From positions 62,001 through 126,000 of the forward strand of contig JABLXR010000006.1 of NCBI GenBank assembly GCA_013178015.1: a stretch of 64,000 bases of DNA, in the 5' to 3' direction. Under the pieces are notes generated by a model, which saw nothing but the letters and a program-made list of their open reading frames with translations, made no database searches and was not told where the DNA came from. The stretch comes from Anaerolineae bacterium. GTDB lineage: Bacteria > Chloroflexota > Anaerolineae > DRVO01. The translations under genes were made by a program, and so were the position numbers. The stretch's first letter is position 1, and each line of letters begins with the position of its first letter. This document shows positions 38,777-49,410 of the stretch, piece by piece.

Positions 38777-38836
38777 GGCGCTGCTACACATTGGTAGGTG
38801 GTGCAGTGGCAAGGCTGCCATCACAAGGAGGTATCA

Positions 38837-39538
38837 ATGCCAGAGTTGAAGGACGGCTGTGTCACCCCGGCCCGAGGGCCCATAGTGCCTGAGGGCCAAT
38901 CGGTTGCTTCCCCAACCCCAACCAGAGCCGCGGAGACTGCCAAGATGCTAGCGTCAGTGGGTAAGCCGGCACCGGATTTCGAGGCCACCGCTTTCGTGAG
39001 AGACTACGGGTTCAAGCCCATTCGGCTCTCAGACTACAAGGGCAGGTGGGTCGTCCTATGCTTCTACCCGGGCGACTTCACCTTCGTCTGACCCACCGAA
39101 CTGGCGGCGGTCGCCGCTCGATACGGCCAGCTGCAGGAGCTGGGCGTCGAGGTGCTCGCCATGAGCACCGATAGCCGATTCGTTCACAAGATCTGGCAGC
39201 AACAGGAGCTGTCCAAGATGGTGGAAGGCGGCGTGCCCTTCCCCATGCTCTCCGATGCCGGCGGGAAGATCGGTAGCGTCTACGGCGTCTACGATGAGGC
39301 CGCCGGGGTAGACATTCGGGGCCGCTTCATCATAGACCCGGACATGGTCATTCGGGCCATGGAAGTCCTGACTCCGGAAGTGGGGCGCAACCCCGACGAA
39401 CTGCTGCGCCAGATTAGGGCCTACCAACACGTCATCGCGACCGGCGAGGTCACCCCCTCGGGGTGGCAGCCCGGCCAGCCCACCCTCAGGCCCGGGCCCG
39501 ATCTGGTGGGGCGGGTCTGGGAACACTGGAAGCCGTAG
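38837..39538 (+). CDS. Selenocysteine-containing peroxiredoxin (AhpC/Prx family)
   Basis: A predicted 233-residue thiol-specific antioxidant protein in which residue 85 is selenocysteine. The TGA at 39089-39091 falls exactly at the peroxidatic Cys of the family motif (DFTFV-U-PTEL; normally DFTFVCPTE). The frame continues for 148 residues of full Prx homology ('[13 protein letters not shown]', '[17 protein letters not shown]', 'RGRFIIDPD', '[13 protein letters not shown]') to TAG 39536-39538. It reduces peroxides in the cytosol. The canonical resolving-Cys site (V-C-P in AhpC) reads V-T-P (GEVTPSGW), so recycling must use another thiol or an external reductant. The N terminus carries about 38 extra residues. 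AAGGAGGT precedes ATG 38837. An ordinary gene caller would split it at 39091. Confidence 0.9.
39104..39117 (+). promoter_or_regulatory. Bacterial SECIS element (peroxiredoxin)
   Basis: Stem GCGGC (39104-39108) / GCCGC (39113-39117) with apical loop GGTC. The loop begins 17 nt after the TGA. Bacterial SECIS elements need a stem-loop with a G in the first loop bases at about 16-37 nt from the UGA, and SelB reads a GGU loop in E. coli. An outer CTGGC/GCCAG pairing (39101-39105 / 39126-39130) could compete or extend it. Confidence 0.75.
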
Positions 39539-48932: not shown

Positions 48933-49259
48933 CTATCCTCGCTCTATCTCATATCCCAGCCTTTCCCATGCCGGGAATCCCCCTTGCAAGGCCTTCGCAT
49001 CGTATCCGCTCTCACGGAGCAGGTCCGCGGCCCTCTCGCTGCTGGAGCGGCCGGGATGGCGGAAGCCTCAATAGGTGACCACAGGCCGATCCCGCGGGAT
49101 CTCCTCCAGGCGCGATGGCAGCCGATCCCGGGGGATGTGGATCGCACTCCGGATGTGCCCGTTTCGGTACGACTCCGCCGGTCGCACGTCCACCACGGTG
49201 ATGTCCTCGCCCTGGTCGAGCCGGCGCCGCAACTCCTCGGGGGTGATGAGCGTCTCCAC
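48933..49259 (-). CDS. Selenocysteine-containing rhodanese-like sulfurtransferase
   Basis: A predicted 108-residue rhodanese domain with selenocysteine at residue 64. The TGA (49070-49068) lies just where the catalytic Cys belongs: 'RPVVTY-U-GFRHPGRSSSERAADLL' (normally VVTYC..G.RS..AA..L). Downstream, in the same frame, 'RESGYDAKALQGGFPAWERLGYEIE' is typical family sequence, ending TAG 48935-48933. Upstream 'LITPEELRRRLDQGEDITVVDVRPAESYRNGHI' is the rhodanese N half. It moves sulfur or selenium between persulfide carriers. It starts with GTG 49259 behind GGAGG. Gene callers would report only the 63-residue part. It is divergent from the URO-D family gene. Confidence 0.88.
49028..49053 (-). 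promoter_or_regulatory. Candidate bacterial SECIS element (rhodanese)
   Basis: On the minus strand, starting 14 nt after the TGA, CGGCC (49053-49049) pairs with GGCCG (49032-49028), with an inner CTC/GAG stem. The apical loop AGCAGC (about 24 nt from the TGA) has a G in its first two bases. This fits the loose bacterial consensus but is weaker than the peroxiredoxin element. Confidence 0.5.
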
Positions 49260-49410
49260 ATATCCTCCTTGACCAACGAGATGTCACAGACGATGACAAC
49301 GACACCGGTAGGCAGCGTATCCCTCGCCCTAGCCCCAGTCAAGCCTGCCCCAGGGTGGCCGGCGCTTCTGCCTCCCTAGCGCGGACCCTGCCCCATAGAG
49401 GCTGGATCTG

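Follow-up and report, generated by a model that had tools for sequence, protein, structure and literature searches.

A rhodanese gene in the 64-kb stretch of DNA analysed here (the window) carries an in-frame UGA at the position of its catalytic cysteine and is very probably a selenoprotein gene. This reading follows from the presence of UGA at the same codon in relatives and of cysteine there in others, from the selenocysteine (Sec) machinery of the genome, and from selection on the sequence past the UGA. Sequence comparison also indicates two hairpins downstream of the UGA that are specific to the Sec genes. We favour, with moderate confidence, an explanation in which a Sec-rhodanese is made by means of a composite recoding signal, the distal hairpin (hairpin 2) binding SelB and the proximal one (hairpin 1) acting as a spacer. 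What is new here is that the best-fitting SECIS hairpin lies beyond the published range, behind another hairpin that may bridge the gap.

A rhodanese frame with one UGA

The initial annotation had joined two halves of a minus-strand frame across a TGA at 49070-49068 into a product of 108 residues ending at TAG 48935-48933, and all of this proved correct when the GTG, TGA and TAG were verified base by base. The features of the gene are as follows.

49259..48933, minus strand: read-through ORF of a single-domain rhodanese, 108 amino acids, GTG start, TAG stop at 48935-48933
49263..49269 (approximate), minus strand: Shine-Dalgarno-like AAGGAGG just 5' of the GTG at 49259, read from the sequence
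49070-49068, minus strand: in-frame TGA, codon and residue 64, in the catalytic Cys column; proposed Sec codon
49028..49053, minus strand: hairpin 1, UGA +15 to +40; SECIS candidate of the initial annotation, proposed spacer
49006..49022, minus strand: hairpin 2, CUGCUC-CGUGA-GAGCGG, UGA +46 to +62, loop at 49016-49012; proposed SelB-binding SECIS core

The TGA is the sole interruption of the frame, and the sequence around it reads VVTY-U-GFRHPGRSSSERAADLL...LQGGFPAW. The rhodanese identity proposed earlier extends to the whole domain: PF00581 (Rhodanese) matches the read-through protein over profile positions 1-101 of 102 (E=5.4e-19), compared with E=6e-12 for the 63 residues before the UGA alone. 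An AlphaFold model from the single sequence had a mean pLDDT of 62, too low for a fold search. The neighbours of the gene (a TPP enzyme, a URO-D-like protein on the opposite strand and small unassigned ORFs) look unrelated, and no operon partner was found among them.

Sec machinery and other selenoprotein candidates

The source genome (4.57 Mb in 97 contigs, 95% complete) contains selA and selB, both above cut-off, a tRNA-Sec gene (selC; Rfam 76.7 bits, ARAGORN anticodon tca) and selD (L058, G000:C50:15894-16829), also above cut-off and with an internal TGA of its own. The initial annotation had proposed a check for selB and selC; selA and selD were found along with them. In selD, a SECIS-like hairpin (GGCGCAG-GUU-CUGCGCC) has its loop 33 nt 3' of the UGA. 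Among the window's large ORFs (34), the stop is TAG in 20, TGA in 14 and TAA in none; with TGA closing 14 of them, the genetic code is the standard one.

The rhodanese had been described as the second selenoprotein of the window, which is plausible. A peroxiredoxin gene at 38798-39538 (plus strand; AhpC-TSA, E=1e-38), probably the first one meant, has a TGA in frame at its peroxidatic position (39089-39091; FTFVU), followed by a canonical SECIS (GGCGGC-GGUC-GCCGCU) whose loop lies 17 nt 3' of the UGA. The same genome also encodes a second Sec-rhodanese (L019; G000:C41:27590-27886, minus strand), which is membrane-anchored and has the motif CTU; the SECIS of this gene and its relatives is GCGCC-CGUGC-GGCGC, with the loop at +22. 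Relatives of L019 occur in many genomes of the class, one of them in the same genus (L018).

Sec and Cys relatives

Relatives were searched for in 396 genomes of the class, and further searches covered the family, the phylum and more of the class. Among the 396, the five best relatives outside the source genome (57-60% identity) each contain a single in-frame TGA, and it falls at the same codon. Altogether, 12 Sec genes (L017, which is the window gene, L023, L063, L025, L024, L026, L027, L092, L093, L095, L096 and L144) fall into eight families (f1, f8, f36, f38, f71, f85, f96 and f124) of a phylum that is probably Chloroflexota; L023 and L063 are near-copies and are both counted. Alignment with Cys-containing rhodaneses, as suggested in the initial annotation, places the Cys of about 15 genes (L064, L094, L097-L106, L065, L028 and L029) on the UGA column, and a plasmid gene of Deinococcus deserti shares the motif, with Cys in place of Sec (YCNMFHPGAS). 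At one locus (L129; G244:C386, 296-1000), two rhodaneses stand in tandem, with the Cys copy directly 5' of the Sec copy.

A tree of the Sec and Cys members has three label changes, with most forks unresolved and the count of Cys/Sec conversions unsettled; because the subfamily tree is poorly resolved, the sequences are partly non-independent. A search of genome contigs with the single protein returned only two remote rhodaneses, neither with UGA at that position, and a search of viral contigs with the alignment gave no match. Relatives in plasmid and phage collections were all less than 60% identical, UGA forms having been looked for only among the matches listed.

Purifying selection acts on the half of the gene that follows the UGA. 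When the window gene is compared with nine other Sec genes, this half has a dN of 0.14-0.29 and a dS of around 1 or more, although dS is partly saturated. A dN so far below dS past the UGA is not how sequence behind a true stop would look.

Taken alone, the assignment of Sec to the window UGA is close to certain. It had been made in the initial annotation, which named a lack of Sec machinery or a missing C half in close relatives as grounds against it; the machinery is complete, the C half is conserved in relatives, and the Cys/Sec pairs add to this support. The same evidence makes it very improbable that UGA is a true stop, whether behind a functional 63-residue product, in a pseudogene or through a sequencing error. 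UGA does terminate 14 of the window's 34 large ORFs, but at this codon it is kept in 12 genes of eight families while other relatives have Cys, and it is followed by a C half with dN well below dS in a genome with complete Sec machinery. Conservation over the 12 genes led us to reject a pseudogene or a plain stop. We give as little credence to UGA being read as some other amino acid, by Trp-type reassignment or near-cognate read-through. A frame that stays open when TGA stands for any residue cannot by itself name that residue; however, relatives have Cys there, the genome has tRNA-Sec and selB, and other genes use UGA as a normal stop.

Comparison with known Sec-rhodaneses

That Sec-containing rhodanese-like proteins occur in bacteria, as the initial annotation noted, is already published: five forms have been described (UxxS, UxxG, CxU, UxxG and UxxxxU; PMC13188914), with earlier publications on Sec-rhodaneses in PMC9312934, PMC1088965 and PMC2398784. 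The window protein is a further member of this class, and has in common with forms 1-5 the rhodanese fold, an active-site Sec, Cys homologues and bacterial Sec machinery. It differs from them in that the Sec of its subfamily opens an extended loop, U-x-[MF]-x-x-x-G-x-S; the motif of the window gene is UGFR (UxxR), and UxxG is present in one subfamily member only (L144). Compared by the listed motifs alone, the subfamily may equal form 1, 2 or 4.

None of the NCBIfam selenoprotein models matches the window subfamily above cut-off. The model for the CxU form (NF041203, rhodanese_LYCAU; cut-off 115) gives 48.6 bits for the window gene, which is without the CxU motif; L019 is closer, at 77 bits, yet below cut-off. 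TsoB (NF045694), a rhodanese/DsbD fusion with UxxxxU, gives the window gene 25.7 bits against a cut-off of 805. ChrE (NF033833), the rhodanese of chromate-resistance clusters, has a cut-off of 120 and scores 29 bits for the window gene, 46 for L023 and 49 for L092; it ranks first or close to first among the NCBIfam matches of the last two.

Other arrangements of UGA were seen among rhodaneses. Three (L035, L036 and L046) are a variant of the CxU form with two Sec codons, the in-frame UGAs lying two codons apart (YUTUP), and three more (L030, L031 and L033) have UGA immediately 3' of a Cys codon (CGRCUPP, CSDCUPP and GDRCUPP), which is another Sec position in the loop.

Two hairpins after the UGA

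The published model of a bacterial SECIS has a stem of at least 4 bp and a loop of 3-9 nt with an early G (mostly G[G/U]), the loop lying 16-37 nt from the UGA (PMC13188914). Each gene was scanned for hairpins with the stem and G[G/U] loop of this model. Between 16 and 37 nt after the UGA, neither the window gene nor most Sec members have a canonical G[G/U] loop on a stem of at least 4 bp. The sole hairpin of the window gene that fits this stem and loop is hairpin 2, with a 6-bp stem, a 5-nt loop (CGUGA) with G[G/U] at loop positions 2-3, and an energy of -6.7 to -8.2 kcal/mol depending on the segment folded, near the -7.5 limit of the model. Its loop lies 51 nt 3' of the UGA, beyond the 16-37 nt of the model. 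The bSECISearch consensus (quoted in PMC13188914) is likewise matched in stem (6-8 bp) and loop but not in distance, with the other hairpin in between. At a relaxed threshold, no SECIS model of Rfam matches.

Hairpin 2 is kept in 11 of the 12 Sec genes, with 6-8 bp and the loop CG[U/G]G[A/C]; none of the aligned Cys relatives has one. The exception, L096, has a canonical hairpin at 24-25 nt instead, and L095 has both hairpin 2 and a canonical in-range hairpin. Codons 15-21 after the UGA show the strongest synonymous conservation of 87 seven-codon windows in the Sec genes (74% codon identity; the median is 45%), compared with 41% in the Cys genes. When the genes were recoded synonymously, a hairpin as stable as hairpin 2 arose in 3-40 of 1,000 trials for 10 of the 11 genes tested. 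A strict search (loop CGUG[A/C], stem of at least 6 bp) finds hairpin 2 and nothing else on both strands of the 64-kb window, and 10 of 11 matches to the looser loop CG[U/G]G[A/C] in 160 kb of related loci are the hairpin 2 element. In L024, paired silent changes (CTG to CTA and AGC to AGT) preserve the stem. RNAalifold on nine sequences recovers hairpin 2 and not hairpin 1, with a covariation term near zero. In L092, L093 and L144, the predicted minimum-energy fold favours other pairings over hairpin 2.

The stem at 49028-49053 that the initial annotation offered as a SECIS candidate is a real, Sec-specific hairpin (hairpin 1); its region has a mean of 7.8 expected base pairs in Sec genes and 1.9 in Cys genes. 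It folds in nearly all Sec genes, in a varying register and with a loop that is not conserved, and its upper stem covaries at third codon positions, with a silent change from C-G to U-A. The covariation evidence on the hairpins is thin, at nine sequences and few events. Hairpin 1 is without a canonical SECIS loop in the window gene and is probably a spacer. The earlier assignment needs correction: the hairpin of SelB type would most likely be its 3' neighbour at 49006-49022.

A proposed composite recoding signal

In the mechanism that we propose, SelA, SelB, SelC and SelD of the same genome would decode the codon-64 UGA as Sec, yielding a selenium-dependent rhodanese of 108 residues with a selenolate as the nucleophile. 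SelB would bind hairpin 2 through its CGUGA loop, and hairpin 1 would act as a spacer that folds out around 26 nt. The effective distance from UGA to loop would then be about 25 nt, and it is this return to the published range of 16-37 nt that suggests a composite signal. The loop type CGUG[A/C] is common to hairpin 2 and to the SECIS of the CTU Sec-rhodaneses, and its occurrence at a normal distance in L019 is an argument for the local SelB recognising loops of this type. L027 has an insertion of 6 nt within hairpin 1 and retains hairpin 2, whose loop is 57 nt from the UGA.

An ordinary SECIS is a less likely but serious alternative: hairpin 1 would be the SelB site, with a degenerate loop, and hairpin 2 would play a secondary part, enhancing recoding or mRNA folding. 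Hairpin 1 does lie within the published 16-37 nt (PMC13188914), its Sec specificity and silent covariation fit such a role, and L095 and L096 have canonical in-range loops at its place. Most members, including the window gene, nevertheless lack any uninterrupted stem (4 bp or longer) capped by a G[G/U] loop within that range, and it is hairpin 2, rather than the loop of hairpin 1, that is conserved in sequence and loop.

The composite signal might be a distinct class of bacterial SECIS, in which the core acts 51-57 nt from the UGA and an intervening Sec-specific hairpin folds out the excess; we consider the chances of this to be even. A subset of bacterial SECIS elements departs from the model, and distinct classes have been hinted at (PMC13188914). 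The archaeal fruA SECIS, 88 nt after the UGA (PMC9622424), likewise acts over a long distance, but it belongs to an archaeal system and differs in structure, whereas the system here is bacterial. In the open literature, which takes in only a minority of subscription papers, we came upon no account of a bacterial SECIS core lying more than 37 nt from the UGA with another hairpin in between.

Possible function

The catalytic residue of a rhodanese bears the persulfide, and a selenolate at this position would be more nucleophilic and more easily reduced. The likely activity of the window protein would be sulfur or selenium transfer, or the reductive handling of reactive sulfur or oxyanion species. 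Two Sec members in two families stand in the order PadR regulator, Sec-rhodanese, ChrA chromate transporter (L092 at locus L130, G731:C266, and L095 at locus L132, G491:C86), the former with a TauE/SafE exporter also upstream, and ChrA lies near two Cys members (L138 and L139). Neither ChrA nor PadR is a neighbour of the window gene. In some Cys members, the rhodanese is fused to a preceding DinB-like domain, which scores just below the Pfam cut-off. A role in the handling of reactive oxyanions or persulfides is a lead only.

Implications

Selenoprotein genes are often overlooked because UGA is taken as a stop, and SECIS-based finders presuppose a fixed range from UGA to loop. If the composite signal is real, genes of this kind escape the published distance rule, and more of them may be hiding as truncated ORFs. 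A family that breaks the rule regularly, with the likely compensating device visible in its sequence, would offer a direct test of how SelB measures distance. The genes described here would also extend rhodaneses with a catalytic Sec across eight or more families of a single phylum, in some of which they lie beside chromate transporters.
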